Shown: one piece after another, positions 38,399-61,420 of the stretch
Numbering within the stretch: the stretch's first letter is position 1
How the letters are laid out: each line of letters begins with the position of its first letter
Source of the DNA: Cliona cf. orientalis
Lineage: Eukaryota; Porifera; Demospongiae; Clionaida; Clionaidae
Direction: 5' to 3'
Assembly: GCA_963930775.1 (NCBI GenBank)
Contig: OZ005690.1
Coordinates: 11,744,411-11,808,410, forward strand
DNA: 64,000 nt
The notes under the pieces: model-generated
What the model was told of the DNA's origin: nothing
Database searches by the model: none
Seen by the model: the letters and a program-made list of their open reading frames with translations, nothing else
Translations under genes and position numbers: made by a program

Positions 38399-40229
38399 AT
38401 GTCTCTCAGAGTGTGTGTTCTATCCTTGTTGTACATTTTTGGACTTAGAAATGGTGCAAAAGGTAAACTTTTTGCCTGGATTTATGGTAATCAAACATAG
38501 CTAGCTAAAACTGAACATTGACAATCAGCAGGATTGATATTGACTCCTAGCTCAGAAGAAGCTGCAGTGTTATGTGAGGGAGAGGAACTTGAACTTATTT
38601 GCACATCAAATGAAACTTTTCTTCAGTGGTTATGGTCATTACAGATTGAACCTGGCAAAGTGTTAGAGCATTCACGATTCATCTCATCTACCGATGCATC
38701 CCAACAAATAGACTCTGTATCAGTGAACGGGACTTCATTCCATATTTCAAGAGTTTCCCATCAAGGAAGGTTACCTCTTGTGTCCAGATTACTAGTTAGC
38801 CCTGTATCTCTTAAAGTAAATGCAGTAATTATAGCAAATTGTACAGAGGTAGGAGCAGATGGAATGGCATCAATTACTATCAATATGGTTGGAGATATCA
38901 ATGCCAGTAGGTACACCCAAGTATCATTATTAATAATAATGCAAATCTATCCAATTGCAGACTATCCTAATCTTCGAGAAGTGAATTCCTCCGTAATAGA
39001 ATATGGAATACTTGATGTCACAGTCCGTCTCCAGTGGATACCACAGAACGACGTGATTTACAATATCAGCATCAATCCAAAGGTGGCAATCGTTGATTTA
39101 ATGACGACACCTGGTGTCCAATTTTCAGTATCCTACAATATCCACTATGAAGTTAGTATTATAGCTACCAGCAGCTGTGGGCAAAACAGGACTATTGTTA
39201 GCTTACATTATGGTGAGTCCCTATTAATTATCATAGTATAACACATACACTGTGTGGCAGTTAAATTCAATATGAATTATTTGTAGCTGCATGCCACTAT
39301 CCACTACAAGAAGGAAACAGTGATGTAAATTATAGCAGGCCAGCATTAGAAGGCACCTCTGTCGTGTTTGACTGTCCTCCTGGATTGGAACTTGCTGGAT
39401 CTGAATCAGCAACATGTATGGAGAATGGAGAATGGGAACCTAACATCACATGTAGCAGGCGTAAGTAATAATTATAATATTCTTAAGTTTTATTCTTGTT
39501 GGTGTATGGTACAGAGCTTGCAGGGCTTCACTATATGATATTATTATGTATGCATTAATTAGGCCACGGAGACCATTGTTAAAATTGGGGCTAGCCGAAT
39601 CGAGCCCCACATGAATCACTCATATGAGAAAAATATTGTATGTAATATGTATTCATAACATACTATATAGAATAAAGTTTCAGTTACAATAATCAATGTC
39701 ATACTGATGGTAGCTACCGCTAGAATACACATGGTTCAAGAACTATAAATCTGTTTACTTTATATACCCAGCTACCTGTCCACATCCAGCAGAGCAAGTT
39801 GATAGTTCAGTAAGTGTCATAGGTTACAAGGAGCCCGCACTGATGGGAACTAATGTGATTTTGGCCTGTCCTGCTGGACTGATACTCACTCCAGGATCCA
39901 CTCTAACATGTGTGGGGAATGGAGAATGGGAACCTGACCCCAATACAGTAAAATGTAAAAATGAAAGGAAAGGATCGCTAAGTATTGAGGCAAAGATTGC
40001 CGTAGCTTCCTCAGTGACTGTGTTCACTGTGGCGTCAATTCTATTCTTCATTATTGGTTTTCTGTGTGGACACTTTTGTCAAAAGAAGAGTACAAGAGCT
40101 GCAGCTGGTGAGACTGTTCCTCCAGGAGGAAGTGGAGGACACACACGGACTCCATACTGTGATGATGTTGTGCTTCAACAGAAATTCGAAGTGGAGCTGA
40201 AGAAAAATGCAGCTTATGGTCCATTATAA
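38399..40229 (+). CDS. Receptor: signal, Ig-like, FN3, two sushi domains, TM, tail (440 aa)
   Basis: Exons are 38399-38462 (signal, MSLRVCVLSLLYIFGLRNG), 38532-38906 (Ig-like), 38961-39212 (FN3), 39287-39460 (sushi 1) and 39772-40229 (sushi 2, membrane span, tail, TAA). All junctions are phase 1 and the total is 1,323 bp. The 54-bp intron at 38907 is divisible by three, so the frame reads through it. The Ig part has LICTSNETFLQWLWSL and IIANCTEV; FN3 has VRLQWIPQ and SYNIHYEVSIIATSSCG. Sushi domains show VVFDCPPGLELAGSESATC, NGEWEPNITC, VILACPAGLILTPGSTLTC and NGEWEPDPNTVKC. The span is SSVTVFTVASILFFIIGFLC; the tail has TPYCDDVV and ends ELKKNAAYGPL. Probably a surface receptor for recognition or adhesion; the function is inferred from architecture only. 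Confidence 0.85.
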
Positions 40230-40740
40230 TAAGTCTGGTATTATCAAGATTATATTGAATGCAAGTATATCATATGTATTTATAATTTAGTAGCATGCAT
40301 GCACTATACATGTCATAACATTAATATTATGTTATCATAATAATAATATTATTATTATTATACCATAATACTGATTACCGCTACACGATGTAATGTTTAA
40401 CACATGTACATGCAGGAAAGGGAAACTACATGTTATTATGACATGTCATAGTGTTGGTATGATTCTATCTGTGTATAATAATAATAATAATTATTATTTC
40501 TATGGAAAAATTTTGGTCTTGCAGGCCAAAATCACAAACACGTATAATTATATTAAGGTAGACAATGATGACTATACATGTATAGTCCCAATCATTTTGG
40601 GAGTAACTACAGCTAGCTGTGTAATACTAGCCATTGATATTGTATTGATACCATAATTATAATTGCTATCATAACTGGTAAATATATTGTTGTACAAAGT
40701 TTTCACAAAATTGCAGCCTATAGTTGACGACTATATTTTC

Positions 40741-42763
40741 TCACCGAAAGTGACCGTAAGCCATATTCTGTTCTAACTCAACATTTCGCTCATCAGCGTC
40801 CAACTACCTATCACCATAGGCAGGGCCCGTTGTTTGATTACTGCTTTTAGCCAATTTCTTGCAGAGGTAGTGATGACATGCACATCCCATGATGAAGAGG
40901 AGAACATTGGATATGAGTAATACTCCCACCAATGTTCCCAGTGTCACTGTTACTGCACTGATATCTGACTCACCGCCTGACTTACGCACAATCCCTGGAA
41001 AGTTGGATGATGCATAGAATCAATAATGTTGCATAATTATGCACTGGTCTGATGTACCGTCAGAAACCTATAATATGAGTAGCCATGCCAAATTGATTAC
41101 CTTTTGTACACATCACAACACTGGGATCTGGTTTCCATTCCTCATTCCCAGTACAGGTTGTTGAATTTATTCCAATGAGTGACAAGTCGAGAGGGCAAAT
41201 GAGGTTGACATGCAGTTGTTCCTACGTTTGCTGGTACACCATTATCACCGTAACCTACAACCACTACTGGACTGTTGATCGTTGGATATCCACATTTGGC
41301 TATAATTATTATGAAATCCATCATGCGTGCACTTGTACTCTAGCATGTGTATGCATACATATAGACTAACCTGCAACACAATTCACATTCTGCAGGTTTG
41401 GTTCCCATAATCCATTTCTAGTACAGGTTGTTGTATTGGTTCCATTCAGTATCATTCCAGGGGGACAAGAGAGGTTTGCCACGGACCCTTCTATTGGTAG
41501 ACCACTGTGTATCACACCTGGTGTGCTAATATTGTCAGCAGCTGACAAGGATAACAATCCACAGTTAGCTCTACATATTATAATATTATTATTAATAAGA
41601 AGGCAATCTGATTCATATTATCTGCATGGCCACTTATCAAGTGACTTACCATAAAATAATGTAATACTGCTAGATCCTATACTTTGACAGACAGTAGACC
41701 CCTCCAAGCTCACATTGTACTTAGTATTGTATGATACTGTCAATTGAACACTTGTGCTCCCAGTGTATATCATGGGTACCATAGGAACAATGGTGATATT
41801 GTATGATACACCTTCCCACTGAGTCCATTCAACTATGATCATGACTGCAATGCTATCAGCTCTGTATTCTTCAGAAGTCCTGACCATTATTGAACTTGGC
41901 AGAGCTGCAAGGTATTAATAATAATTATGTCCATCATCGAGAAAGTGGATGGGCCTAATGATAAATGAATTTCATACGTATCTGCAGAGTGACACTTAGG
42001 CTATGCACAAGAAAGATTTAGAGATCCAAACTTTCCTCAGATCCCTCTAGCAAATGCGTGCTATATTATTATGATGCTAATGCCCATGCATGCCCCTATT
42101 GATATTACTTGTCCACTTAATTTTCATGGCTACAGCTATAGTGCCCTGAACATTCAGGTCAGAGGTGATAATAGTCATCATACGTACTCCTATCAATGTA
42201 GTGGATAGTGGTTGAAGCTGTTGTTGAGGTCCAAGGATCCTCACAATTCACCTCTGTTCCATTCAATTCATTGCTTATTGAGTTGATTACCATCGTAGAA
42301 ATCAATGGTGAGTTATTTCGAGCAGAAGTCCTCGTGACAATAAATGTTGTAGAGTTTACTCTTATTTCTTCTGTCTGCTGAGATTCATCTTCAGCACTGA
42401 TAAAGGCGGGCCCATACTCTGTCAGTCTACCCAGTGAATTCCTAGCTGTGAAACTCCATCTTATAATAGTTCCATTAGTGATGCAGGTCAGTTCAAGTTG
42501 ATCTCCAGCTTGGCAAACTTGGGCCACTGATTCAGGTAACAAAGTGACTGTTGTACCTGTGCATGCATGTGTTATACAAATTAAATATTAAAGAAATAGC
42601 CGGAGGCAAATTCATAGCTACTCAATAATATTTTAATATGTTGTGATCGCTATCATTGAAGGCGTAATAATATTATAGCAATACGTTTACCTTCTATACA
42701 GATATTAAAGTAGCTAACGATTAAAAATAAGTTTAGCCTCTTAAGCACGGAATATTCTTCCAT
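40741..42763 (-). pseudogene. Ig/FN3/sushi receptor paralogue with insertion and early stop
   Basis: Exons on minus are 42691-42763 (signal, VLKRLNLFLIVSYFNICIE), 42188-42556 (Ig-like, LELTCITNGTIIRWSF), 41650-41904 (FN3, VEWTQWEGVSYNITIVP), 41371-41568 (sushi 1, LSCPPGMILNGTNTTTC), 41101-41299 (sushi 2) and 40741-40994 (span VTLGTLVGVLLISNVLLFI and tail). The sushi 2 exon is 199 bp where phase 1 to phase 1 needs 198. The frame changes between VGTT and NLICPLDLSLIGINSTTC, so one base is inserted near 41215. The tail has TAG at 40804-40806, yet the same frame continues with NVELEQNMAYGHFR to a TGA at 40741, matching the family tail. These look like two young lesions in a gene otherwise intact; assembly error or polymorphism is possible. 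Confidence 0.75.
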
Positions 42764-43089
42764 AGCTACGCGCAATTTCAAATTGGTAATGATCGTTGCA
42801 CTCGGCGAGCACGGGACAGCAACGGTGAAGGGTCTGGCACCCAGACTATAATTAATAATAATCACTGTGATAGCTAAGTGATGTTGCTGGTAAAATTCGG
42901 TCATAATCATGCAGATATAAATATCAACATTAATATCCTGCTATTGATCTCCTTGGATGTATTTGAATGATACATGATGAAATGAGTTCTGTGATTCATG
43001 CCACACAATGATTGTCATACTGACCGAAAATAATAATGATCAATTGTCGATCCAGCCAGTAGATTAGTGCAAGGACTGTAGAGAGCGGC

Positions 43090-43361
43090 AAAAATGAAAG
43101 TATAAGACTTTGAGTCGAGAGGGGAAAGATTGCCGTGGCTTCCTCAGTGACTGTGTTTACTGTGGCATCAATTCTATTCTTCATCGTTGGTTTCTGTGTG
43201 GACACTTTTGTCAAAAGAAGAGGAAATCAAGTACAACAGCTGCAGCTGGTGAGACCATTCCTCCCGGAGGAAGTGGAGGACACACACAGACTCCATACTA
43301 TAATGATATTGCAATACAGCAGAATGCCAAAATGGAATTAAAGGAAAACTTAGGTTATGAT
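43090..43361 (+). pseudogene. Duplicated membrane-span/tail exon fragment
   Basis: Close copy of 39960-40215 from the plus-strand receptor: GATTGCCGTGGCTTCCTCAG, GTGGCATCAATTCTATTCTT and GGAGGAAGTGGAGGACACAC are shared. One T is missing at TTGGTTTCTG, shifting the frame right after the membrane span. It starts within the sushi 2 end and has no upstream exons. The tail would read TPYYNDIAIQQ and MELKENLGYDN in the other frame. Confidence 0.85.
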
Positions 43362-43736
43362 AATCACAATATCATATTTATTATACACTGCGTATGATTA
43401 TAGATGATGTATAATTATGAGCATGCATCCAGCTTGTCTGGTATCATTCCTAGTAGCTATAGTACCTTGGTGTGCGCTACTTCTCACGGTGGGTACAATG
43501 CAATACTACACGGTTAGTACTGTGCCCAATAATGTTTTGTTATTAAAGCAGCCTAGATCGATACATGTATGTACATCTACAGATAGTAAACAAGTATACA
43601 TAAACAGCAAAGAAAAAATCCTTCTTATGATTGCTCAACTGTTACACTGTTATTTTACACATGCAATATGAGATACACTAATTAAAAAAAACAGATGTGT
43701 TTTTGGTATCTCATGTACACAAAGTAAGACCATTGA
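43362..43736. other. Short intergenic stretch
   Basis: No gene or clear repeat recognised. The convergent side belongs to the 3' end of the minus-strand receptor that stops at 43737. Confidence 0.5.
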
Positions 43737-46165
43737 TCATGAAACATTTATTAACGTTGAGGGACCATAAGCCACGTTTTCTTCCAATTCAATAGCCTGT
43801 TCTTCATGTGTGGTATCTGGAAGCATAGACTCATAGATGGGAACCGGGGGAGCTATTAGAGCTTGAGGATGTGCACTGGATGCTTGATTAAGGGGCCCCT
43901 TAAATTTTCTTTCGAACCATCGACCACACATGAATCCCGTGATGAAGAAGATCACCAAAAATATAAGAAACACAGCTGTTAAAGATACTACCACCACAGT
44001 TAATAAATCACCACCCTCACTATCTAATTCAAAACAAAATTATTATTCTGTACATACTATAATTTTAGAATAGTTATCTTACTGTCTGATTCAAAATTTA
44101 TTGAAGAGACAACATCTGTATCAGATAAATTTGGGATGACACTACCTGTACATGTACATGTGAAGATTAATAAGTACTTTATAGAAAAGGAACAAACACT
44201 GATTCTACACCATAGTAGTCAGGCACACTCATACGTATACGTAGTCAGATTAGTTCTTTCTTACTAGAGGTGTCGATATCTTTAGAGCAGTTTACTTCAA
44301 TTGGAGCTGGTTCCCACTGACCAGTGTGTATACACATCACTGAGTCAGGTCCGTTGAGCATCAGTCCTGGAGGACAAGAAAAGGTCACCACTGTTCCATT
44401 CACTGACAGGTTACGATGATAACCCATTGATATCACAGAATCATCAGTGATTGACAGCAGTGGATCCTCACATCGACCTGCAATACACACAATATAGCAG
44501 AGAAATAAACACCCGGGCCCCGCAATACTTGTCAAGAAGTATACCATAGGCCAGTTGAATCTGTGTAATGGCAGTTTCACCATTGTGTCCACAAGAGGTA
44601 GCAGTGATGGTCACATTAGTGGGGATGTTATAGGGTACAGTCAGGGCTACAGCGCTAGCTGTCCTTTGAGTATACCTGAAGTCCACCACTTGATCAGAAG
44701 AAACACTGTAAGAAACTCCTTCCTCTGGTATCCACTCTAAGGTCACTGAGACACCACCCACTTCAAACACAGGTCTAGTGCTCACTTCAGGTGGACTTAG
44801 ATTGCCTGTGATAATATTATCCGATATTAATTTTAATTACTAGACCAAAGCATACATGACTGCCTATAGCTATATTATAGCCTATGTATGCATGCATGCC
44901 TCTTGCAGAATGTAAAATCTCAAATCTGATCGGTGCGTACATGCCCTTATTTCAGGAAATGAAACAGCCCTCTGTACATGTACACATAGATCACCAGACC
45001 CATCTTTTATTCTAATTGTCAGAGGGTAGAGGTGTAAACACAATCATGGCTTATCAAATTAAACCTGTATGAGTGTTTCCGACGATAATGATGGTAGTTA
45101 ATACTGACATAGCAAGTTCAACACCAATTACTTCTGTACAGCTGACGTTAAGCATATTCAGAGCATTACTGCTGTTGATAATGGTCAGTGTAGACACCAG
45201 TGGAGAGTTATCACGCATGGAGATCCTCAGAAATGTGAAGAAGGTTGAATTGATTGTAAATTGTTGTAGTTGCTGAGTCAGGTCTTCGGATGCAATGAAC
45301 CATTCCCGCTGCAAAGAAGTTCCCTGGTTGTCCATCAAATGAGGTACAAAGTTCCAAAGCAGTGCCGTTTCATTTGTTGTGCATGTTATTTCAAGTTGTT
45401 CTCCCACACACACTTGAGCATGAGCTGGATTTAGTCTCACATAACCTAGTGATTTACGAAGAAAATTGGGTCAGAATCAACATAGAGTCTGGCTGCCGTA
45501 ATTCTGAGATGAAGAAGGAACTTTTGAATAACCATCATAATATCACATTTCAGCTAGGCCCTTATCTGGCCGCTACAATTCTGTATTAGTATGTACGTGT
45601 ACAGTATTCATAATAGTGGCTTTCTTTCAATCGTGAATCGCAGCATGCATGTCTCAACAATGGGCTATTCCAGTTAATAAGGATACACCCCTGTGGAGGA
45701 AGGTTGATTATTATTGAAATGTTGATTTTGAGATGATTTAATGAAGTATCGATGGTATTTTTATGGATTATAATAAAGTATTGTTGGCACCAATGTGGAT
45801 AATAATGAAGTACTGAGGGGACATGATGGGGTAGCTCATCCAAGGTGTGGAGGAATTATTATCAGTTTTATAGGGTAAAATGGGGATTTTGATTAGTTTT
45901 ATGGGATAAAATTAGAAAATTGATTAGTATCGATGATGATTTTACAAATTTAAGTAGTATTTAGGGTAGAAAATGCAAATCTCTTCCTCCACAGGGGTGT
46001 ATGGCCATTAATATCTGGAACAGCCCAATGATATTAAACTATACCCAGATCAAGTCATGTAGATTCAGGCTTACCTCGTGAACTATCTGTGGAGAAACCT
46101 AAGAAGATAATGAAACAAAGCGATACTCTATGCTGGTCCCTCGCGCTGAACCAACTGGTCTTCAT
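43737..46165 (-). CDS. Receptor: signal, Ig-like, FN3, one sushi domain, TM, tail (431 aa)
   Basis: Exons on minus are 46075-46165 (signal, RVSLCFIIFLGFST), 45065-45445 (Ig-like, LEITCTTNETALLWNF and MLNVSCTEV), 44545-44805 (FN3, VTLEWIPEEGVSYSV and NVTITATSCG), 44265-44477 (sushi, VVTFSCPPGLMLNGPDSVMC), 44083-44145 (21-codon stalk) and 43737-44023 (span, tail, TGA). All junctions are phase 1 and the total is 1,296 bp. It has one sushi domain where its neighbours have two, plus an extra stalk exon. The span is VVVVSLTAVFLIFLVIFFIT; the tail contains PIYESML (a YxxM site) and ELEENVAYGPSTLINVS. The donor after the Ig exon is GTTTAA, weak but placed by phase. Intron 1 carries a hairpin element. 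A TTTTGCACTACT module lies 55 bp upstream of the start. Confidence 0.82.
45661..46027. repeat. MITE-like element, TGGGCTATTCCAG ends, in receptor intron 1
   Basis: TGGGCTATTCCAGTTAATAA mirrors the right end TTAATATCTGGAACAGCCCA with small differences, and ATACACCCCTGTGGAGGAAG mirrors CTTCCTCCACAGGGGTGTAT. Related ends (GGGCTTTTCCATTAATGA and TTAATGGAAAAGCCCA) occur near 46262 and 55425. Confidence 0.88.
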
Positions 46166-46219
46166 GACGACTCTCCCACTACTGAGACTGAGGATGGGTA
46201 ATGGTCATCATCCCTAATA

Positions 46220-46256
46220 ATTTTGCACTACTGACAAGGAGTTAGGTGGTAATTGA
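46220..46256 (-). promoter_or_regulatory. TTTTGCACTACTGACAAGGA module upstream of receptor
   Basis: TTTTGCACTACTGACAAGGA then GTTAGGTGGTAATTGAC, 55-91 bp upstream of the ATG at 46165. GGTAATGGTCATCATCCCT stands between them. The same order is copied at 56.6-56.9 kb beside a dead copy of this first exon, so it travelled with the gene. Confidence 0.5.
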
Positions 46257-46623
46257 CAATGGGCTTTTCCATTAATGAATGATACACCCCCACGGAAGAG
46301 TGAAATTGGCATATGACCCCCTAGATCTAATTATAGGCCGATGAACCATCAAGAATTAATTAACTAGAGTATTGAGACCATCAAGAAGTCATTAATGGTC
46401 TTCCGTCCCTTGCAAGTGGTATCCTCATCGTAAGGATTTTAGCTAACTGTGCATTGATGGGCTCAGAGTTCACCTAAGGAAAAGTAATGGGAGGGTGTGG
46501 TTTGTGACCACATCAAAGTAATACGGGTATTAAAGGCATCTGAGCTGGCCTGTATAGTGGGCTAGCTATTTGATTTTGTAACCATTAGGCATTGGCGAAT
46601 TATGCTGGCATAATTTTGAGCTA

Positions 46624-46701
46624 TAGCCTCGTCCCCAAGCCTCCATGCACCCAGCTTCAATGTTGCACGCAGAAATGGGTGGAGGCCTGGGGACGAGGCT
46701 A
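46624..46701. repeat. Short hairpin element, TAGCCTCGTCCCCA ends
   Basis: TAGCCTCGTCCCCAAGCCTCC mirrors GGAGGCCTGGGGACGAGGCTA with one or two differences. It is 78 bp, and the CAATGTTGCACGCA core is similar to CAATGTTGCATGCA at 54517. Confidence 0.85.
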
Positions 46702-47445
46702 ATTTTGGGCATAATAGATTCCATTAGCACATGGGCATATGCTAGCATAATAGATTCTGTAATTTATTTAGGTTTCCCTTCAACCATTCCTTCCTCATCT
46801 CATGTGCTGCATGAATCCTTATTGGAGCCCAAGGTACTGGAGCATAATAATACATAATTATGCTAATTGCCTTCTATATATTTGACTGCATGTCAGCAAC
46901 CTTTGTTCAGTGCAGGGGTACCTTGCTAATTATAAGGCATTGTGGTGAGCATGAAGGGTTTTACTAGCATTGCCAGCATAGCATAATAGGACAGATTTTG
47001 AGCACAATTCACCAATGCCTAGTAATCATACACCCCCTATGAGTGTAATTTGGTGTACTTATGACACAATTATTAATATGACATAGCTACCATCCCCAGA
47101 AGATAAATTCAGTATCAAATACAGCTCCCTTTCTCTCTCCTCAATTATAGTGTTATCTACGTACATACTGCGCTGTTCCAAGCTACTCACTCCCATAAAA
47201 ATAAACATTGTCCTGTTACAAAGAGGTTATTTTAGCTATCCATCAGACACTATTAATAAGATTTGAGTTCCCAGTACTATAGTATCTTTATCCCTGGGTT
47301 GGTTACACTTCACTGATTTAGAGGAACTTCTATTGGTAGGTAATTGTTTATTACACTCCAGCTTGCATAACATTAACTATTATGCCCTCCAAGACATTGT
47401 AGCATGGAATCACTCGTCCCGGCTCTTATTGAAAACCATGGTCCT

Positions 47446-47557
47446 TGCAAGCCTCGTGTACGAGGCCTATACTCTCAATAATACTATGCACACTACTATT
47501 TTTCGTATAGCGTGACAATGTGTAGTATGGAGGGTAGGCCTGGTGCACGAGGCTAAC
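47446..47557. repeat. Short hairpin element, AGCCTCGTGTACGAGGCCTA ends
   Basis: AGCCTCGTGTACGAGGCCTA mirrors TAGGCCTGGTGCACGAGGCT. ATACTATGCACACTACTA pairs roughly with TGTGTAGTATGG inside. Same general family as 46624. Confidence 0.7.
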
Positions 47558-48453
47558 CCTTGCATGGCTTTAATTGGATATCATTTCACATGAACAACTG
47601 ATACTCAACATTGCACAATAGACCTTTGCTAATTTGCTATGGAAACTATTTTTAACAATGCCAGTGGTCCTAGTAATTTTCTGTGCATGCTTGTGGTTGG
47701 AAAAAGGTGCCAACCACAGCACAAACCTATAGGAAAATTATTTTAATATCAACAACAGATCAGACTTGGTGTGGTACATTGATACTCATAGATCATTGTC
47801 ATTGCTAAACATTTTTGGTACGATTGAGGAAATTTTCCCCATACCACTATTTTACCTGACAGCACTGTGTATTAATTGGACAAGGGACACAACCTGCTTA
47901 GATCCCTAGCTGAGCTCTCATTAAGAAAGTAGTATATACACCCCTACCTTTTCCAGTTACTAATAGCTCATGCATGCGTATACATCACCCCAGTAGTATG
48001 TCCTGAAGGTCAGACTGGCCCACCATGCTGCTACAAATGGTTTGCAATAATGTTTGTAGAAACAACCTAGTACCACACTAAGCATAAAAATGTATACGCA
48101 TGGTACATGCATTTATATCTGTTACATGTTATAGTATACACCTACATGCATGTACTAGCTATAGGTTCATGCATGCCCCTGAAAGTAGCTCTCTACAACA
48201 TTATACCTAACCAAGAGCGCATAGTTCTTAATATGCGCTCTTGGCTAACTTAGCATGCTATTCTCATATTCAAACTAGTGGAATGTAAGTCATCAGTGAC
48301 AGTTGGGCACACATGTATAGAGGACGTACCACAGGGCTATAAATTGTCTCTTGTATGGATGAGCAAGATCATGGTGGGAATCAAATTTCAAGCAAGAGTT
48401 AATCTGAGAGCAAGCATGGGTGTGTGCAGATGAAATCTACTGAGTCAGAGCAG

Positions 48454-48748
48454 AGGAGGTAGGACAGGCTTGACCTTTGGCTAATAGTTCACTAATTAAA
48501 TCGCTAGTATATAGGCTTTCGTGAAGATTTTTAGAGGATATCGTTGCGATTTTCGAACTCAGCGCTATTGATTTAGTGGGGGAGCCCCTCTTTGTTAACA
48601 CTGTAGAGTATAATTTTTAGGTCTTTGGAATGTCAATTAGCCGCTTCAAAAATTGCAACGATATCCTCTAAAAAATTCCATGAAAGCCTCTACAAGCGAT
48701 TTAATTAGTGAACTATTAGCCAAAGGTCAAGCCTATCCTACCTCCTCT
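48454..48748. repeat. Foldback element with ~100-bp inverted arms
   Basis: The left arm carries AGGAGGTAGGACAGGCTTGA, CCTTTGGCTAATAGTTCACT and TTAGAGGATATCGTTGC. The right arm carries each in reverse complement, ending TCAAGCCTATCCTACCTCCT. Confidence 0.88.
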
Positions 48749-48974
48749 GGAGTCAGAGGAGCAGAGCTAGAGTGTTTTTGTGGTGTGTTGTGCAGAGATC
48801 TGAAACATGCCCAGGCAAGTTACAGCACTATGTGGTAATACATCTAGGTGTGAAACCACCATCACCACCCAGGTGGCAGTAGTAGTGGTTACCCCACTAG
48901 ATATGCTTGTGGGTGTCCGCTGATTTTCAGTACTAGGCTCACTAAACTTCTGAGCATGGTATAGCCACCTTAGC

Positions 48975-49066
48975 ATGCATACCCTAATCATGCATACCCT
49001 TACCACGCGTACCCTAATCACGCATACCCTAATCACATCACCTCTCACATATTCCAATTATCTCTC
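48975..49066. repeat. Minisatellite CATACCCTAATCA, left of the transposon
   Basis: Short tandem units GCATACCCTAATCATGCATA, CGTACCCTAATCACGCATA. The same type of unit continues right of the transposon, from 52157. Confidence 0.75.
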
Positions 49067-49289
49067 ATATGTGAACGCATGAAGTAGAAATCAGAAATTC
49101 GGTACAGGACTACATTTTGAGATATGGCCACTTAAAGTTTGACACTACTAAATTCTGGTGTTAAATAGTAATGCTTTCAGTACAATGTTTGCTATTGTAC
49201 ACTAACACTATACTATGATGTAATGAAATAATTACTAATTAATTAACCGATTACATCATGCTACAGAGGCTTTAAATAGAATGCGTTCT

Positions 49290-49392
49290 GTGCGAGTTCG
49301 TGCAGGCTCAGTTCAAGTTTGTGCGTGTTCTGGCAAGTTTGTGCGTGTGCTTGGCAAGTTTGTGCGTGTGCTTAGCAAGTTTGTGCAAGTTT
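49290..49392 (+). repeat. Short tandem repeat GGCAAGTTTGTGCGTGTGCTT
   Basis: About four 21-bp units, most regular between 49332 and 49386, directly before the start codon at 49419. It lies in the presumed promoter or 5' untranslated part of the transposon gene. Confidence 0.8.
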
Positions 49393-49418
49393 AGTCCACC
49401 GTGTTTGGCAAGCGTATA

Positions 49419-50349: not shown

Positions 50350-50424
<75 letters not shown>

Positions 50425-51684: not shown

Positions 51685-52156
51685 AGGATCATTGTGTCGA
51701 TTAATTTTTATGAGTGTTGTGCCATGCATTAATGTTGTCTAAAATTGTTAATATTGTGTGTATTGTGTTGCTGTTGTATGGTGAAAGTTAAAGACTCTTT
51801 GACCCATTAAATTTCTAACAGTAACTGTTGAAATCACCCGCGCACACAATCTCTCTCTCACACACACACACCACACAATCTCTCACACACACACACAAGC
51901 TCTCGCTCTCACACACACACACACACCCAGCTTTCTCTCAAGGTGAAAGTTCAAATTTGACTTATTCCTATAGTGCAATAACAATGGTACAGTATGAATG
52001 CGGTTTATATTCTACTTAATGCAATAAAAACTATAAGTCAAAATGCATCAAAATTTTGATACAAGGTAACTAAGGTACCAGACTACCTATCTACAGAAAA
52101 AAAAAATTTTCGCGCATCGCACGCAAATTCCGATTTCTACTTCATGCGTTCACATA

Positions 52157-53060
52157 TACATACCTTAATCACTTCACATGCAATGTCATACACACACAAG
52201 CACTGGTATGCACATACATATACACATATCATAATCATTTCATATCTTTAACACATACCCCATGCAACCACTCACATCTCTCATACACATACCCATCTCA
52301 CTGTGTGTCATATACTGCCCTATTACTTCATTTCTCATACCCTAACTACACATACCCTAATCACATCACCTCTCATATATTCCAATCCCTGTCACTTTAT
52401 CCCTTATATACATACCTTAATCACTTCATGTTGTCATGCACATACCCCAATCACAAGCACTGGTACACACATACACCATACATATATCCTAATCATTTCA
52501 TGTCTTAAGCTCATACCCCATGCAACAATTCGCATCTCTCACACACATACCCATCTCACTACTGTGTGTCATATTATACTACAATTGTGTACTGCCCTAT
52601 TACTTCATTTCTCATGTACTTTTACTAAAACTTGCAATGCTCAAGTGAAAAGTGTCAGCTGATAAGAGTTGTAGAGTGCCTAATTTAATATGTGACCACA
52701 ACTTGCCTTTGATCCGTGCACAAGTGCTGCGCTTCAGTGAACAACTAATTCAGTTATAGTAGTACACTGTTTGGCAGCTAGTGCACACTTGATTTTTGCA
52801 TGTTTTGGTAAAAGTACAGTATATACCCTAATTACTTCATCTCTTATACATATATTTCATCCCCACTCATCTCTCATATATACTGCCCTATTACTTCATT
52901 TCTCATACACATACCCTAATCATTTATAATTATGTCCTGATCACTTCATCCCTCTCATACAAAAATGCGCATCTCATTCCCACCCACTGATCACTTCATC
53001 ATAATATTATTATGCATACTCCCATCACATTACCCATTTCATCTTCTATGCACCGTAATC
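52157..53060. repeat. Degenerate minisatellite CATACCCTAATCACTTCATC
   Basis: About 0.9 kb of variants of CATACCCTAATCACTTCATC and CTCATACACATACCC, with irregular spacing. Units diverge strongly, so it is old. A short relict is also seen at 54325-54375. It contains CCCTAA, but not as a plain telomere repeat. Confidence 0.7.
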
Positions 53061-53112
53061 ATAATACGATGTACTAAGTCACTACAGTAAACTCCCATAG
53101 AGAAGTAGGCAA

Positions 53113-53565
53113 TACCGTATAGCGGGAAATTTTCGTTGGTGCTAATTTTCGTATGATTGACCAAAGCACCCTTAGAATAAATTTTTGTATTTTTTAATTT
53201 CGTATGCTTGTAGTGTAAGACTGCGCGCATGCGCAGCTCGCAATGCTAGCTAGGCCACGCCCGATTGCTTGACAATGGCATCTTGTCGATTGAAGCGATG
53301 GTGAGAGGTTACCATGAGTCTACAAGAGTATTTGGACTGCTGCCGTTGGCGAAGAATTCGAAGCCTTGGCAAAGAACCGATACCGAGATATCGTTAGCAC
53401 CTGCAGCTGCGCTAGCGACTGCGTGTGGTGTAGGTCAAAGGTCACGCTCGCTGGAAAAAAAATTTCGTAGGTTTAAATTTTCGTAATTTTTATTTTCGTA
53501 TAAGGGATGGAGCATACGAAATATACGAAAATTAGCACCATACGAAAATTTCCCGCTATACGGTA
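53113..53565. repeat. MITE-like element, TACCGTATAGCGGGAAATTT ends
   Basis: TACCGTATAGCGGGAAATTT mirrors AAATTTCCCGCTATACGGTA exactly, followed by TTCG and GTGCTAATTTTCGTATG mirroring CATACGAAAATTAGCAC. It is 453 bp. A frame at 53265-53486 inside shows no known domain. Confidence 0.93.
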
Positions 53566-54152
53566 ATTCTTGTATCTAACAGTGCAAGTATAATCGCTCA
53601 CTGATTGGCTACGGTGTTAATTTAATTACAGCTTGCACCTAATCACGTGCTGATTGGGTAAAATCACCCTTCGTTTTGTTAGTACAGCTGCAAGGTCAAG
53701 AAGAAAGCCACGAAACCTGCTGATGCTACACAAGCTCTACAAAGCACCCCTTCACCTTGTGGGGGTAGCCAGGCTTCTATTTACTTAGTGGACCTATACT
53801 ACTGCTAGTGGTCCAGGGACGGCGGAAGCATTTTCGCGCGCCGCGAAATTTTACAATTTTAATTATATTCATGGCCATGACGTCATCAATATAGTACCGC
53901 TGTGGTACGCACACTTGCCTATAGCGCGCCTAGCGCCTGCATTCGACAGTGCAGTGCACAGGCACCCGCATGCGCGAAATCATCCAACGTGGCTACGCCC
54001 CTCATTTTTAACTGTGGGCTGGCTCTATGAATAAATTATCCTGCCAAAAAAGTGGTCCGGCCAAAACCGGACCAGCCGGACCGGCAGCGCCGCCCCTGTG
54101 GTCTGTTAGTCAAGTAGATAGGCGTCCTTACATAAGTGCTTCATATGATTAG

Positions 54153-54323
54153 TAATTGATCACATCCTTCTGAGTGCAATTTGGAAATAATCACACTCGT
54201 AACTGCCACTTGTAAAGCAATTTAAATTGCACTTGGCTTCACTTCATGCAATTTCAAGCTTTCCAACTGGCAGTTACTCGTGTGATTATTTCCAAATTGC
54301 ACTCAGAAGGATGTGATTAATTA
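54153..54323. repeat. Foldback element, TAATTGATCACATCCTTCTG ends
   Basis: CACATCCTTCTGAGTGCAAT and TTGGAAATAATCACAC on the left are mirrored by GTGTGATTATTTCCAA and ATTGCACTCAGAAGGATGTG on the right. The centre also pairs (GCAATTTAAATTGC). Confidence 0.93.
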
Positions 54324-54820
54324 TTCTAATCACTTCATCTCATCGATCCCTCCTATACATACCCAATCACATACACTTTGAGCTGCCCACTTTAGTCCTT
54401 TATTTATTCCCCTCAATGCGTGCCCATAATAATTCTTTGATAGCCGTAAGACATAGATATTGTAGTATATTTCCCCTAGGGTATATACCTCATTCCCAGG
54501 CCCTATATTCCCAGCTATTCAATGTTGCATGCAAAGACAACATCAGGGAGACTGGGGACGAGGCTACCCTAGGATAAGTTGTTAAGTGGCCTACGCATGG
54601 CCTGGAAACATGAAAAGGAATAATAGACTTACAAGAGGGAAATAAACATAGTAGTAATGAGCTAGGGGTGTGGCCATGGGATTGTTTGAATCCACTGTCA
54701 TGTTAATTAAAGTGAGCTAACTGGTTTCCTATAACTTCTAGGAGTCTCTCTATAGTTCTCTCCCTCACCCCCCCCCCCCAACCCCCCTTCTGAATGTGTG
54801 TTAAGTTGCCATATATGCAT

Positions 54821-55157
54821 CAGTGGAGTAGGAACCGGAGGGGCCGGGGGGGCCAGTGGGCCCCCCCCCCCAATCCTGTAGAAGGGGGGCCCTGGCCCCT
54901 CCAATAAAAGGGTGGATAGCTAATTATACTTAGCAAGGATAGAAGACCAGAAAGTTTTAGCTTATTATTAGGATAAGGTCTCAAAATTAATGTCTAATTT
55001 TTAGCATACTGATTAATGTCAGTAACATGTATTAAAAAAGGTAGGCTTTTAGAAACTAGCCGCTATGACTAATTTACGTCCCTGCATCGCGCATGACCAA
55101 GTACCTTGGGCCCCCCCCCCCCCCCCCCCCAATGTACAATTGCTTCCTACTCCACTG
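54821..55157. repeat. MITE-like element, CAGTGGAGTAGGAA ends
   Basis: CAGTGGAGTAGGAA at the left, TTCCTACTCCACTG at the right, an exact inverse. Poly-C/G tracts lie near both ends, as in the elements at 31886 and 37450. Confidence 0.9.
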
Positions 55158-55603
55158 TGCATCACATGATAGCATTAATTAGACAATTAACTGCACAATG
55201 TCACATGTAGATCATGTAAAGAAAAACATTTTCTAGTGATACCCTGTCAATTAATTACACCTCCAACTATTAACAACACCGTTTGGAATCATTAAAATTG
55301 CATTAGCTGACCATCAAGAATTAATATAAAGTGGCTAAATATCCATAAAGAAAGTAATTAAAATTTTATAGCTTATACCGTCAGGAAGTAATTATTGGTC
55401 TTCCGTGGGGGTGTATCCTTTATTAATGGAAAAGCCCAATAATGGTTTTGCACACACGTACTATAGACGAGTCGATTTTAGACGCGCGACTGTATCACTG
55501 TATGTACCGTGCGTGCGTGCATTTAGCGATGGAAACCGTGTCATAGTAAGCCTATAGTCTGTCCTTATACTATTTGTGGTCTCTTTTATATCTAGCTATA
55601 TAG

Positions 55604-55785
55604 ATGTTATAGGTTACCATTACATGGAGATTTTGGCCTGTCCTGCCGACTGATACTCACTACTAAGGTATGGAGAATGGTGAATGGTATCTTTAAGGAA
55701 AGGATTGATGAATTAGGATCCTTTAGCTCAGTGACTGTGTTTGCTGTGCCATCAATTCTATTCTTCATTAATTGCTGGTTTTCTG
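55604..55785 (+). pseudogene. Fragment of sushi 2 and membrane-span exon of the receptor family
   Basis: It matches 39820-40065 in pieces: ATAGGTTAC, ATTTTGGCCTGTCCTGC, TGATACTCACT, GGAGAATGG and TCAGTGACTGTGTTTGCTGT then ATCAATTCTATTCTTCATT. Large internal deletions and stops leave no function. It ends abruptly where the opposite-strand fragment begins. Confidence 0.75.
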
Positions 55786-56175
55786 CACTTCCGTTCCATT
55801 CAAGTATCTGTTCACTGAGTCAATTACTAACGTAGAAATCAAGGGTAGCATTCCCTGACTGGAAGTTCTCATAAAGGTGAAAGTTGTTGAATTATTCCGT
55901 CGATATTCCTGAAAGACACCGGCCCTGTTCATTACCCACAGTGAAAACCCACCTTGAGAAGCTCCGACTGGAACTGCATGTCAGTTCAAGTGGATCTCCT
56001 ACTCTGCAAACTGGGGCCACAGATATAGGAGACAATGTCACCATACCTACAACCATAGTGATGGAGGTTACTACAGTCATTACCTCTAGAAAATTATACC
56101 TGTTGTACTGATTTCACAATCACCAATAATCAATATCAAAGATAACAAATATTTAAGTAAAAACGACTTCTCCAT
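55786..56175 (-). pseudogene. Broken receptor: signal exon plus damaged Ig exon
   Basis: On minus, 56100-56175 is a signal-peptide exon (MEKSFLLKYLLSLILIIG) with a phase-1 donor GTATAAT. A 53-bp intron follows, and the Ig exon starts at 56046 (GMVTLSPISVAPVCRVGD, LELTCSSSRSFSRWVF). A stop follows GISTE. In another frame the rest is recognisable (RTSSQGMLPLISTLVIDSVN, then LNGTEV), equivalent to the paralogue at 42188-42556, with the middle deleted. The Ig exon ends head-on against the plus-strand fragment at about 55785. Confidence 0.75.
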
Positions 56176-56511
56176 AACTGCTCTCGCGCTATTGCGCAGA
56201 AATGGTAATGGTCGCCATCTGGAAATGTGATTCCAATGGCTGTAATTTCTGCCTCATTGTAATTATAATTAATCGTAATTTCGTTATTTATTTACAGCTG
56301 CTTTCGTGGAACTGTGGCCATGGGTATAACTGAGGATAGCCATACTGCGTTTGCATAAACAATTTTACTGTTACAGCTGTTTGCTTCTTGGATGATAGCT
56401 GGAATATTGGATGAGTTTTGTTCAATATTTATATGATAAACCTAAGCAAAAAAATAATATCATCCCCACTTGTATCATTAGCTTTGGATATATTTTACTA
56501 TAATATTATCT

Positions 56512-56580
56512 GTGGAGTAACCTAAGAAGATCATGAAACAAAGCGATACTCTATGCTGGTCCCTCGCACTGGTCTGATGA
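56512..56580 (-). pseudogene. Dead copy of the first exon of the receptor at 43737-46165
   Basis: GCGAGGGACCAGCATAGAGT, ATCGCTTTGTTTCAT and ATCTTCTTAGGTT match 46087-46147. The start codon part is lost (TCATCAGACCAGTG replaces it), and the donor is not conserved. The copied promoter module lies just upstream on minus. Confidence 0.8.
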
Positions 56581-56649
56581 CCCCCACTGTATATTAATTA
56601 TGGTACGTACTGAGACTGAGGATGGGTAATGGTCATCATCCCTGTTAAC

Positions 56650-56910
56650 GCTCAGTAACTTTGCACTACTGACAAGGAGTTAGGTGGTACCGGTAATTGA
56701 CTGTGCACACAACGTGTTGTTTACTACATGTTACTAATTATGCAGCGCAGGTTCAATATGGAAAGGGTCGTCAAGGTAGTAACATCTTTGCACTACTGAC
56801 AAGGAGTTAGGTGGTAATTGACTGTGCACACACGTGTTGTTTACTAGACTAATTACACTATGCAGCACAGGTCCAATAATAATATGGAAAAGGTCGTCAA
56901 GGTAGTAACA
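56650..56910 (-). promoter_or_regulatory. Tandemly duplicated TTTGCACTACTGACAAGGAG module
   Basis: Two copies (about 56656-56783 and 56784-56910) each run TTTGCACTACTGACAAGGAG, TTAGGTGGT, AATTGACTGTGCACAC, CGTGTTGTTTACTA, then ATGCAGC, CAATATGGAAA and GGTCGTCAAGGTAGTAACAT. They lie upstream of the dead first exon. It is either a duplicated promoter or part of a dispersed repeat that these genes happen to carry. Confidence 0.55.
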
Positions 56911-57372
56911 TTGTCACCACACCTGCATGCTTTGATAAGTAATTATTTGCTTTATAGGCTGTATGCAATTGTGCCTATATAAATTATAGCTACATGTAGT
57001 AACACTTTTAATAGTCATAGTCAATGATCATACAGATATTCTAGATGCATACAGAGACTCCATAATGATAGACATTATACATGCACAAATTAGTGGATCA
57101 TCATCGGCTAAAATTATACACAACGTTACGTATGTACACATCCCCTCTGAAGTACCGGTATAAATTATTATAGTTCCAGTGTGTTCTGGAGTTGATGTGC
57201 ATGTTTAACCAGTAACTTAGGAAGTTTTGAAAATCATGATAAATAATATAACAGAGTTACTGTAGATACCTAATAATATAAATATTATCAGATTCTATAC
57301 TATGATAAGTAATATTCAGTTCTTAATTGTGACACTGCTATGATAATGATTATGGATCCCTTGGAAAATAAT

Positions 57373-60300
57373 TTACTTTGTAAATATTGATAGTGGGCCA
57401 TACGAAACATTCGTGTTCAAATCAACATTTGACTCATCATTATCACAGTGCTCAACCGCTTCTGAGGCAATATTTTCATACACTGGTCCAGAAGGTGAAC
57501 TCGGACCTAGCTGAATGTCTTCTGTTATTCCCTCTTCTCTCGACTGTGAAATAGTGGGCTTCTTTGAGAAATGACGTCCGCAAAGAAATCCACAAATAAA
57601 GATGAATATTATTGTTATGGAGCATAGTACAAAAATTGATGTTGATGAGACAATGACAATTATAATATTGGTGCTCAACAATTTGCCTGAGAACAACAAT
57701 GCACATGGGTACAAAGTTATGTATACAAAATTAATATGTCTTACTGTGGTCCACGTATTCTGGAGACATTGTTGATGAGGGGGAGCAAAGAGAATCAGCA
57801 CTAGGATCTGGCAGCCAAGTTGCATTTTTCTGACACACAGCCACCGAAGTTATATTCTCATCTTCACATTTGATGCTATACACTAGTTCAGATCCTTCTA
57901 GTGTACTGATGTAGTATATTATAGTAGTATCACCAGTAGTACTGGGTATTCCACAATCCACTATAATAATTACCCCGCGCGCATGCGCAAGGGGTAAAGC
58001 AATCGGTTTGTCCGTCTGTTGTCGGCACGAAAATCGCCAGATCTTGAGTTCTAGGCGTCTGTGCGTGCTATAAGCACAATCAATCGGTAGATATCGGTGA
58101 AAAACTGGTTTGTACGCGCTTCGAATTTCTCAAAAAGGCTTACTAGTGCTACAAATCGTACATTTTCTGTTCAGCATGCCTGTGGTTTATCGACCACACC
58201 CACTCTTTTAGCATAATAGTATGCGAATGCGATTGCGCATGCTCAAGCACGATGTTGGAAAGGGTCGTCACATCGTGAAACAGCTACACATGTGCTTCCG
58301 AGTGTTGCAATACTACGCTATAGTGGCTACAGAGCGCGCGGGGTATGTGCTCTACAGAGCTCTAGTTTGTTATATTATGAGTGAAGCGTGCAGTCAGATA
58401 TGGCATTGGATCAACACATAGATTATCATTATTATCGCAAAGTGTAGGCGGAGGCATTACTGCAAGGGTCGTCAGAGAGAAAGTACCCATTCGTGGTCAT
58501 GTTACCCAGTGGTGTATATTATAGTAGTGTCCAGCTGTTGTTTACATGGCACCTATATACCTCAGCTACATGACTAATAATACTGCTTTCAGTTTATAAG
58601 ATTATTATAGTAAAAACATAGTTAAGTCAGGTGCTTTCCCCTACTCCTATATGTCATTCACTGACTCTATTATAAAGAGAACAGTACCAGAACACAGTTC
58701 AGGTGCATGCGGGTACTATGTAGCTAGTTCAACAAGTATATATACACAGTTAGCCATGCTATAGATCTACATGTGCATGAGTCATGCATGCGTGTAGTGG
58801 TGCAGGTTCTGCACTCCTGTGCATTCATAATTCACTGTCAGTAGTTTGCGCTATCTATGTATGATGTGTACAACCATTAGCAGCCATAATTATGATGATA
58901 CCTTTGCAAGCAACCTCTGTTGGATCTGGTTCCCACTCTCCATTGTTCATACATATGGTTGAATTAGGTCCAGTAAGAACCAGATCTGATGCAGAACAAG
59001 TGAACGTGATGACAGTGCCTTCGCTTGCTGGATTAATGTCACTAGAAGGATACTGTAGTATGGAGTCATCAACTAGAGGAGCTATCATCAGTGGGTACCT
59101 GCATGTGTATGCTAGGTGAATCATAAACTTTGATCGAGCTGATATTGGGGAAGAAACTTATCATAACATTGCACGAAACGTTATTGAATGCTATAGCAAC
59201 CTGACATTGCATGTGGCTCACCATGATAAATAATCTCAATTGCTGTCCTTTCTTGTCCACAAAGTGTTGCTGAAACATTCACCGTGAGTTGAATATTATA
59301 AGGAATTATCAGCTGAATGGTTGATTCTCCAATGAATGTTGTTATAACTTCTGGAAAGACACTAAAATTGTATGACACCCTGTTCTCTGTAATCCATTCT
59401 ATGACTGTCACTACTTCTGTTGGCTCAAACCTTTCTGTCACATTCAATATTGGGGCAACTATAACAGGACCTATAAATTCAATTCAGGAACATAATTAGT
59501 TTTAATACATACAATTATGTATTAACATACAATTATGTATTATTACTCCTGCTATAGCCTAGGGGGGAAAAGCATACTTAAATCTTCATGCAGTGCATTA
59601 ATGACGTCAACTGCACTGTGTTACACTGGACCACAAGTAAGATTTCCTTTATGTCATGCTTACTAATTATAAACATGAGCTTTCCGACACATGTTTGACA
59701 GAGGATAGGGCAGAGTTTTTGTAAAATAAATGGAAAATTTTACCCTATTCTACACATTTCCTACATATTAAATGAAATCAGAGTTTTTATCTAGTGTTAA
59801 TTAGTTAGTACAACTAACTATAGCTGTCTAGAGAGCACTCACTATCGCCCATGATGCATATATACTTAATATTACCAGGGCCATAATATGGACAAATTAC
59901 CACAATTATTTCCAATGATGCAAATGGTTGCACTTTTTGTGTTTATGGCTCTCTGATTGATCCACTCTGAGCAAGAGACTACAGTTCCATTAACTACATT
60001 GTCAGCACTAATTTGACTAGTGTGTGGCAGAGTTCCAGGTGTGGAGATTAAGGAAAATTGAAACGTAGTACCGCTAAATGTGAGTGATGGTGTTGTCCCT
60101 TCGTTGGCTACTGTTCGAGTCACACTTTGTGCTATTTGTTGAGAGTCAGAAATTTCCCATTGCAGAAAATCGACATTATTTGATGTACATGCTATCACAA
60201 GTTGTTCTGTTGGACACAATTCAACTTTGCTTGGTGAAAGAATCAATACTCCTACAGTGCCATATGAAAATGATATTTAAGTGCATAGAGTCAGTAATCA

Positions 60301-61420
60301 AATATCAACCGCAACATAATCAGACACCTGTATCCCTCAGGAACAGAAGGAGCTATGATCACCATTCTTGCGCTGACTGGTAGCCCTAGTCAAATGCTGA
60401 TCACATACCAAATCCAAAGTCTTTGGGATAAACTGTGCGTGAGGTAGAGACAAAAATGCTCACCCGCCTGATTTAAGCAATTACCAGACACTTGTACCGA
60501 ATTTCAGACAATCACTTCCCTTACTAATTTAATAGATGTGTGGAGTACCAGATTTGGAACATAATTATGACTATCTACCCTTGCTGTCACTGGCCACCAA
60601 ATTTTAGCCAAAATGTTTCTGTAATTGAATGTGACAAGACTTTAAACAGATTCTACTTATGTCATCAATATTCAGACACTTTTGTTCCATTTTTCCTGAT
60701 TCAATGATTCAAATTATCATAAACTTTTAAAATCACCTTTGCAACCCTTGGATAATCACAAATAATTGACCAATAGAACATATTATAACCAGGCAGTATT
60801 TAATTTAATGAATTGAAGGTCTTTTACCAAATTTTGAATTTTTTAGCCAAGTCTTGCACCTGATTTCCATAAAAAGTGTCTCAGACTGAATATTGATGAC
60901 ATGAGGAGTACCTTGTCATACTTGATTCAAGTAACACTGTGGGCTAAAATTTGGTACCCAGTGACAGCAAGGGTAGGTGGTCATATGTTTCAGATCTGGC
61001 AGTCCACACATCATTTTCAGCGGTGAGGGAACTATAATTGTCTGAAAATTGGTACAAATATCTGGTAGTTGCATAAATCAGACGGGTGAACATTTTTGTC
61101 TCTAGCTCACACATGGTTTATTGCAAAGACTTTGGATTTGGTATGTGATCAGCATTTGACTAGAGCTACCAGTCAGCGCAAGAATGGTGATCATAGCTCT
61201 TTCTACTCCTGAGATACAGGTGTCTGATTATATGTGGTCGTTGGTATTTGATTGCTGACTTTGATTGCTGACTCTAGCTAGCTATAATAATTACACACTA
61301 AAAAAAAAAAAAATTATGTGGGTTATACACTGAACTTATGCTCATGTTACCTTGCAGTGGAAAAGGATAATATAGCATTGTTGTTACAATTTGCAACTTG
61401 ACCACAAGTAGCATCATCAT
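57373..61420 (-). CDS. Receptor: signal, Ig-like, FN3, two sushi domains, TM, tail (469 aa)
   Basis: Exons on minus are 61351-61420 (signal, MLLVVKLQIVTTMLYYPFP), 59901-60251 (Ig-like, LVIACTSNNVDFLQWEI and VVSCSEWI), 59222-59470 (FN3, VTVIEWITENRVSYNFSV and NVSATLCGQ), 58902-59111 (sushi 1, VITFTCSASDLVLTG then GEWEPDPTEVAC), 57745-57960 (sushi 2, VDCGIPSTTGDTTIIYY then WLPDPSADSLC) and 57373-57686 (span, tail). All junctions are phase 1 and the total is 1,410 bp. The span is TSIFVLCSITIIFIFICGFL. The tail holds GPVYENIAS (Tyr-Glu-Asn, a Grb2-type SH2 site if phosphorylated) and NTNVSYGPLSIFTK. Intron 1 is almost entirely a 989-bp palindrome. The signal exon is 1.1 kb away and placed by phase, so it is the least sure part. 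Probable surface recognition receptor. Confidence 0.8.
58013..58120. repeat. TGTCGGCACGAAAATCGCCA repeat in a receptor intron
   Basis: TTGTCGGCACGAAAATCGCC, AGATCTTGAGTTCTAGGCGT and GTGAAAAACTGGTTT match the diverged copies at 9225-9335 and 10236-10420. It sits in a stretch bounded by TACCCCGCGCGC (57972) and GCGCGCGGGGTA (58334), which may be the ends of one 370-bp element. Confidence 0.55.
60287..61275. repeat. 989-bp foldback element filling intron 1 of the receptor
   Basis: The two halves are imperfect reverse complements over almost their whole length. AGACACCTGTATC pairs with GATACAGGTGTCT. CTATGATCACCATTCTTGCG pairs with CGCAAGAATGGTGATCATAG. ACATACCAAATCCAAAGTCTTT pairs in part with AAAGACTTTGGATTTGGTAT. 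CCTTGCTGTCACTGG pairs with CCAGTGACAGCAAGG. GTCATCAATATTCAG pairs with CTGAATATTGATGAC. The centre is near 60,780. The right end has a 15-bp duplication of TTTGATTGCTGACT. Confidence 0.93.

Follow-up and report, generated by a model that had tools for sequence, protein, structure and literature searches.

Three intact receptor genes in a window of Cliona cf. orientalis chromosome 2 belong to a multi-megabase complex with predicted V-set-like heads and ITIM-like tails

We analyzed a window of 64,000 nucleotides of chromosome 2 (C2) of the sponge Cliona cf. orientalis (contig OZ005690.1, positions 11,744,411 to 11,808,410), in which three intact genes (A, C and D) and one broken gene (B) share a plan of signal exon, immunoglobulin (Ig)-like exon, FN3-like exon, one or two sushi exons, and a membrane span followed by a tail (Table 1, in window coordinates). 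This window covers part of a receptor complex that extends over several megabases of the chromosome. Splice models were built by hand and then checked by script; in A, C and D every intron is GT-AG and every internal exon junction is in phase 1. An earlier note, made from the letters of this DNA alone, had proposed models of 440 (A), 431 (C) and 469 (D) amino acids, and these were reproduced exactly. The recurring exon order, phase, splice sites and tail motifs rule out chance open frames as their source. The note had counted four full-length paralogues, which holds for three; B is ruled out as a full-length gene by two lesions: its second sushi exon is frameshifted, and its tail is interrupted by an in-frame TAG. 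This stop removes the tail end kept by most family members, yet the frame past it still reads ELEQNMAYG, a family-type ending, and a copy of B at 6.2446 Mb of contig C13 (locus L057) has a tail without the corresponding stop. We therefore regard B as a lesioned copy. At the C13 locus, A-type and B-type tail exons lie tail-to-tail off chromosome 2, 89% identical to the B tail region over 337 bp and 80% to A over 457 bp.

The mixed orientation, variable number of sushi exons, extra stalk exon (in C) and at least four broken fragments described earlier were all recovered. What had been called copied promoters is an exon-1 block copied together with ∼90 to 106 bp 5' of the ATG (87% and 83% identity in the two nearest paralogues); the copying stands, and the identity of the copied DNA as promoter is putative.

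Table 1. Features of the window (positions counted from its first nucleotide)
Feature	Position	Strand	Parts	State or remarks
Gene A, 440 aa	38399..40229	+	signal 38399-38462; Ig-like 38532-38906; FN3-like 38961-39212; sushi 1 39287-39460; last exon 39772-40229 (sushi 2, membrane span and tail together)	intact, 5-exon splice model
Gene B	40797..42763	-	signal 42763-42691; Ig 42556-42188; FN3-like 41904-41650; sushi 1 41568-41371; sushi 2 ∼41300-41100; membrane exon 40994 to premature TAG 40806-40804	broken; frameshift (near 41210) and premature stop
Gene C, 431 aa	43737..46165	-	signal 46165-46075; Ig 45445-45065; FN3-like 44805-44545; sushi 44477-44265; stalk 44145-44083 (21 codons); membrane/tail 44023 to ∼43739	intact splice model
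Gene D, 469 aa	57370..61420	-	signal 61420-61351; Ig 60251-59901; FN3-like 59470-59222; sushi 1 59111-58902; sushi 2 57960-57745 (divergent, four Cys, below Pfam detection); membrane/tail 57686 to ∼57373	intact splice model
A-type membrane/tail exon relic	43090..43400	+		80.5% identity with A across 272 bp; spread over two frames
A-type sushi 2/membrane exon relic	55629..55790	+		two short matches
B-type signal and Ig exon relic	55783..56180 (ends approximate)	-		frame breaks; abuts opposite-strand relic
C-type exon 1 and upstream relic	56507..56689	-		77.7% over 188 bp
Four-Ig gene (second Ig family)	25555..30458	+	Ig exons ∼25.86-26.22, 26.65-27.00, 27.55-27.90, 28.09-28.45 kb; membrane span ∼29.98-30.10 kb	ends by eye, provisional splice model
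Inverted repeat, first intron of gene D	60336-60512 / 61037-61213		177-nt arms, shorter inner arms	90% complementary; possibly a small inverted-repeat element
Open frame, 756 aa	19636-21906	+		weak otubain-like (OTU) and CXC-domain matches under Pfam cut-offs; transposon-like
Open frame, 457 aa	50311-51684	+		Pfam DUF7869 (E 4.8e-20), beside simple repeats; probable mobile element between C and D
300-bp stretch present twice	14536-14835; 16456-16755			100% identical, 1920 bp apart

Sushi domains score above the Pfam cut-off of 20.7 bits in A (41.8), C (24.2) and D (22.6) and under it in B (17.1). Neither an Ig nor an FN3 model matched A to D in a Pfam scan at E<=1, and 13 Ig exons gave weak matches at most (Ig_3 in three, Ig_2 in one, I-set in one; best E 0.034). 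The predicted fold of the Ig exon is nevertheless an Ig beta-sandwich of V-set type with the core Cys-Cys and Trp, and its structure matches are led by T-cell-receptor V domains, which are abundant in the Protein Data Bank. For the second domain, structure matches of the predicted fold to FN3 and C2-type Ig were tied; given this tie and the lack of a Pfam FN3 match, we call it FN3-like rather than FN3. The Ig-FN3-sushi plan of the earlier note thus stands on Pfam for the sushi domains of A, C and D, and on predicted fold only for Ig and FN3. Alr and fester, the allorecognition proteins discussed below, did not appear in the structure match lists, which means little, as their structures may not be solved. 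None of the best 150 genome sushi matches (700 candidates) lay on C2, indicating that canonical sushi genes are elsewhere and that the sushi domains of this family are divergent. Canonical sushi repeats form long arrays on other chromosomes (C18:0.706-0.733 Mb and C14:7.39-7.45 Mb). An HRM match on the sushi of A (E 6.5e-5, below cut-off) and an Imm12 match to one window frame were treated as incidental.

The family is large and almost confined to one chromosome. We searched 149 contigs totaling 216.8 Mb; the published assembly is given as 307 scaffolds and 217.17 Mb (PMC12639293), the short ones presumably lying outside our set. Although C2 (14,801,553 bp) makes up 6.8% of the assembly, whole-gene queries with C, D and A gave at least 111, 98 and 130 genome matches, of which 111, 96 and 129 were on C2 (97 of 693, 91 of 687 and 96 of 724 candidates were scored). 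Queries with three Ig exons, for which 150 of 293, 244 and 204 candidates were scored, gave at least 150, 140 and 94 matches (147, 136 and 92 on C2), and a tail-exon query placed 95 of 98 there (150 of 179 candidates scored). Taking the 375 of 384 Ig matches on C2 and merging same-strand starts within 260 bp (a few extra places found later were not added), we count at least 172 distinct Ig-exon places, which are exons and not complete genes: 152 within 10.98-12.65 Mb, 17 beyond, and 3 at 3.1, 6.1 and 6.7 Mb. The core comprises 82 plus-strand and 70 minus-strand places in 47 strand runs with a median spacing of 4.4 kb. This census rules out an ordinary single-copy gene, and a genome-wide dispersed family is ruled out by the location of nearly all listed matches on C2. 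The paralogues anticipated earlier therefore exist in number, in a cluster whose extent is megabases rather than 23 kb. The nine Ig-exon matches off C2 fall at C5:8.08 Mb (two places), C1:32.86 Mb and C13:7.22 Mb; at C5:8.080-8.085 Mb two Ig-exon matches and one tail-exon match are ordered on one strand, perhaps a transposed family member.

The four-Ig gene upstream in the window represents a second Ig family; of its 90 matches (all 111 candidates scored), 83 lie on C2, and 81 of the 83 are spread across 10.5-14.2 Mb, interspersed with the first family. The proposal that this gene belongs to the same system is supported as far as its location goes.

The nearest paralogue of D (11.650 Mb) adjoins one of the two nearest of C (11.644 Mb), indicating that a C-D block was duplicated ∼146 to 153 kb away. 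Two neighboring loci (11.845 and 11.854 Mb) share 99.94% identity along 3.4 kb; either the duplication is very recent or the assembly contains the locus twice. Comparison of C with two of its paralogues (11.644 and 11.972 Mb) gave groupings that differ by exon: by the Ig exon the paralogues belong together (2000 of 2000 bootstraps), by the FN exon C joins 11.644 Mb just as uniformly (2000 of 2000), and the sushi exon gives no resolved grouping (1422/357/221). Synonymous distances between C and 11.644 Mb agree with these groupings (Ig 0.65, FN 0.15, signal exon 0.06). The tail type of C recurs on the same strand at 11.641 and 11.966 Mb behind other Ig-FN fronts, and the front at 11.644 Mb is followed by a different tail type. 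Together, the conflicting groupings, distances and tail associations indicate that the genes are mosaics of phase-1 exons. Pairwise differences among seven C-like Ig exons, that of C among them, are 9 to 28%. Birth-and-death evolution with domain gain and loss, as the earlier note had it, is supported by the 172 Ig places, the broken copies, the 99.94% identical neighbors, the duplicated C-D block and the mosaic exons. Its description of the genes as fast-evolving, if read as positive selection, fared less well: pairwise ratios of nonsynonymous to synonymous change (dN/dS) among the three genes compared were 0.31-0.40 for Ig, 0.26-0.52 for FN and 0.29-0.51 for sushi exons. Diversifying selection was not found in these three genes by whole-exon pairwise dN/dS, a measure blind to a few selected sites; the result speaks against selection, with selection on single sites possible.

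Tails were compared across 54 distinct tail ends from 64 loci (63 on C2 and one on C13) and the window. We counted 36, a few out-of-frame relics among them, leaving out 18 that had no clear span or fewer than 25 residues after it. The motif LxxNx[AGS]Y occurs in 31 of the 36 (shuffles: mean 0.1, maximum 3), Y[ED]x[IVLM] in 29 (mean 2.2, maximum 7) and an exact immunoreceptor tyrosine-based inhibitory motif (ITIM) in 21 (mean 4.2, maximum 10); since the tails were collected by tail similarity, the shuffles gauge pattern density, not independent origin. Within the window, D (PVYENI ... NVSYGPL) combines both motifs with an exact ITIM, C (PIYESM ... LEENVAYGPS) has both motifs, and A, which ends in LKKNAAYGPL, has LxxNxAY only. 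Among metagenome tails (best 120 of 491), the same three patterns were present in 119, 114 and 96, with a spacing between the two tyrosines of mostly 17 to 23.

A phosphatase that could read such tails may also be encoded. On contig C8, matches to SH2, SH2 and Y_phosphatase follow one another on the plus strand within less than 2 kb (C8:9936138-9938107), the order found in SHP phosphatases; the phosphatase match runs over two stops, presumably an intron. Judged from sequence, this is a candidate SHP-type partner for the ITIM tails. SH2-phosphatase neighbors also occur on C4. Tyrosine-phosphatase matches are dense at C15:7.2-8.3 Mb and C4:1.92-2.0 Mb, and SH2 matches at C7:1.89-2.14 Mb and C19:5.40-5.52 Mb; these arrays possibly reflect expanded phosphotyrosine signaling.

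A metagenome search with the full C protein returned one relative, and an Ig profile returned 155 matches, of which the best 120 were used. Several Ig matches on a 2,575,295-bp contig are identical to this genome, and we take that contig to be the same genome. On a second contig of 510,881 bp, Ig exon P0015 is 84% identical to that of C, P0089 is 91% identical to 11.641 Mb, and P0032 has its best place at 11.476 Mb (86%); the next intact places reach ∼48 to 53%, and a stop-broken copy at 11.456 Mb 66 to 69%. By sequence this fits a homologous haplotype of 11.48-11.79 Mb with strongly divergent alleles. In the Cliona cf. orientalis paper, 25,502 genes are annotated, RNA-seq and an assembly of the alternate haplotype are described, and the primary haplotype by itself has a k-mer completeness of 60.5% (PMC12639293), which suggests strong heterozygosity.

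We hypothesize that the complex serves self/non-self recognition between cells, a role whose prospects we judge to be evenly balanced and which can be reasonably inferred from the clustered V-set-like receptors, the ITIM-like tails, the SHP-like domain order and the counterpart contig with its 84 to 91% identical Ig exons. Each intact gene would encode a surface receptor that crosses the membrane once; its outer part would carry a V-set-like Ig domain farthest from the membrane, then an FN3-like domain and one or two sushi domains (folds predicted). In most family tails the two tyrosine motifs, Y-E/D-x-I/V/L/M and then a terminal L-x-x-N-x-A-Y, often with an exact ITIM, would be phosphorylated and recruit SH2 proteins such as the SHP-like phosphatase after the Ig head had bound a ligand on a touching cell, whether of the same sponge or of a different individual. 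Tolerance or rejection could then follow from the balance among many such receptors, and the phase-1 exons would be a source of new ones through exon shuffling and gene conversion. A bolder version, possible but on the whole doubtful, is that distal chromosome 2 is a sponge histocompatibility complex in which >100 exon-shuffled V-set/FN3/sushi receptors, many with ITIM-type tails, and an interleaved second multi-Ig family (possible ligands or partner receptors) jointly control graft fusion or rejection.

Several observations weigh against a recognition role. The excess of tail motifs over shuffles partly reflects shared ancestry, given how the tails were collected. Among the intact window genes the exact ITIM is confined to D; A and C lack it, A also lacks Y[ED]xPhi, and the two other C-type tails are likewise without an exact ITIM. 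YxxPhi and NxxY motifs, moreover, serve endocytosis and phosphotyrosine-binding (PTB) domain binding too. The 510,881-bp contig, which has no stated origin, possibly comes from a related or sister species. The Ig structure model was built on four sequences and has a confidence score (pLDDT) of 74. Finally, dN/dS was below 1 in nine of nine Ig, FN and sushi comparisons, with bootstrap intervals reaching above 1 in two.

Birth-and-death evolution is also typical of pathogen receptors, and the heads might recognize not cells of their own species but bacteria or the photosynthetic dinoflagellates of the sponge, an alternative we find rather improbable but take seriously. Symbiodiniaceae sequence is reported from this sponge sample (PMC12639293), and genes containing Ig, FN3 and sushi domains are described as responding to microbial patterns in another sponge (PMC6208332); on the other hand, A to D contain no lectin, SRCR, LRR or TIR domain in the Pfam scan at E<=1. 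An unlikely explanation is that the receptors act in ordinary cell adhesion, sorting and tissue organization, with a copy number that reflects drift where the DNA is prone to recombine. Adhesion proteins often contain Ig and FN3 domains, a dN/dS below 1 agrees with such a function, and YxxPhi and NxxY motifs, together with the missing exact ITIM in A and C, fit endocytic adhesion receptors, but for structural adhesion genes it would be unusual to find, in a single region, at least 172 strongly diverged Ig places together with broken copies and exon shuffling, and 21 of 36 tails have an exact ITIM. That the region is mostly a graveyard, rich in transposons, where duplicates pile up and few genes are expressed, seems highly improbable: B is broken, at least four relics lie within 23 kb and the window has transposon-like open frames, but A, C and D are intact, stops in every match affect only 3 of the 172 Ig places (frameshifts lie outside this count), tail motifs are kept across diverged tails, and dN/dS values of 0.26-0.52 indicate constraint.

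We know of no established gene set for sponge graft specificity, for which a megabase array of >100 antibody-like receptor segments offers a concrete candidate source of self/non-self genes. Graft outcomes in sponges are described as specific and repeatable, implying a polymorphic genetic system (PMC5450542), and now that a region is bounded, its exons are named and it has both conserved tail motifs and a phosphatase candidate, the question is open to linkage and phosphorylation work. The complex could also show whether ITIM-style self-tolerance predates bilaterians. If the histocompatibility reading is true, sponges, hydroids and tunicates would share a logic of clustered V-Ig receptors and ITIM/SHP signaling.

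Vertebrate KIR, LILR and Siglec genes are clustered, duplicated Ig receptors with ITIM tails and without sushi or FN3; the Cliona genes are likewise clustered and duplicated, with tail tyrosines fitting the ITIM consensus, a likeness of plan and not of orthology. Sponge aggregation factors, a candidate polymorphic recognition system, are secreted proteoglycan core proteins with Calx-beta/Wreath-type domains, none of which appeared in A to D in the Pfam scan at E<=1. The Ig-containing adhesion molecules and receptor tyrosine kinase of Geodia are, by description, comparable as sponge membrane proteins with Ig domains, and we know of no FN3-sushi plan or clustered family among them. One account mentions an Ig adhesion molecule of Geodia (PMC11999971), and an Amphimedon graft study reports no significant enrichment for aggregation-factor-mediated adhesion (PMC5450542). 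Microbe-responsive Ig, FN3 and sushi genes are already present in sponge transcriptomes as described (PMC6208332), so the domain types themselves are not new.

Closer in plan are fester and FcoR at the fuhc locus of Botryllus schlosseri, described as type I membrane proteins with V-type Ig and sushi domains, lying in one region of variable gene content (>37 new fester loci and 53 FcoR loci), with ITIM, hemITAM or YxxI/L/V motifs in the FcoR tails (PMC12065747). The Cliona family shares with them V-Ig and sushi domains, a large regional family and, at family level, FcoR-like tail motifs. According to the same description, however, FcoR has two C2-type Ig domains after sushi, whereas the Cliona order is Ig, FN3-like, one or two sushi and one span, and fester has three membrane spans against the one read from the models of A, C and D; we compare these chordate and sponge proteins by plan, not by homology. 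The Hydractinia Alr complex consists of clustered single-pass Ig superfamily receptors with V-set domains and many probable pseudogenes (PMC11067881, PMC11999971), and motifs of ITIM type or its activating counterpart (ITAM) are described in candidate allorecognition genes of this hydroid (PMC12065747). Like Alr, the Cliona receptors cluster in a genomic interval, with 152 Ig-exon places in 10.98-12.65 Mb of C2. The Alr ectodomain combines V-set and I-set domains, whereas the second Cliona domain is FN3-like and is followed by sushi; the Alr descriptions, as far as available, mention neither sushi nor FN3, and give at least 41 loci against the at least 172 Cliona places, which are exons and not complete genes. 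Since the defining features of FcoR, fester and Alr differ in these ways, we do not file the Cliona complex under any of them. A literature search of titles and abstract openings, covering few preprints and few subscription journals, found no earlier report of this cluster, and within that search the complex, its domain plan and its tails are the new part. By analogy of plan and genomic setting, it resembles fester/FcoR and Alr, which appear to be its nearest functional parallels.

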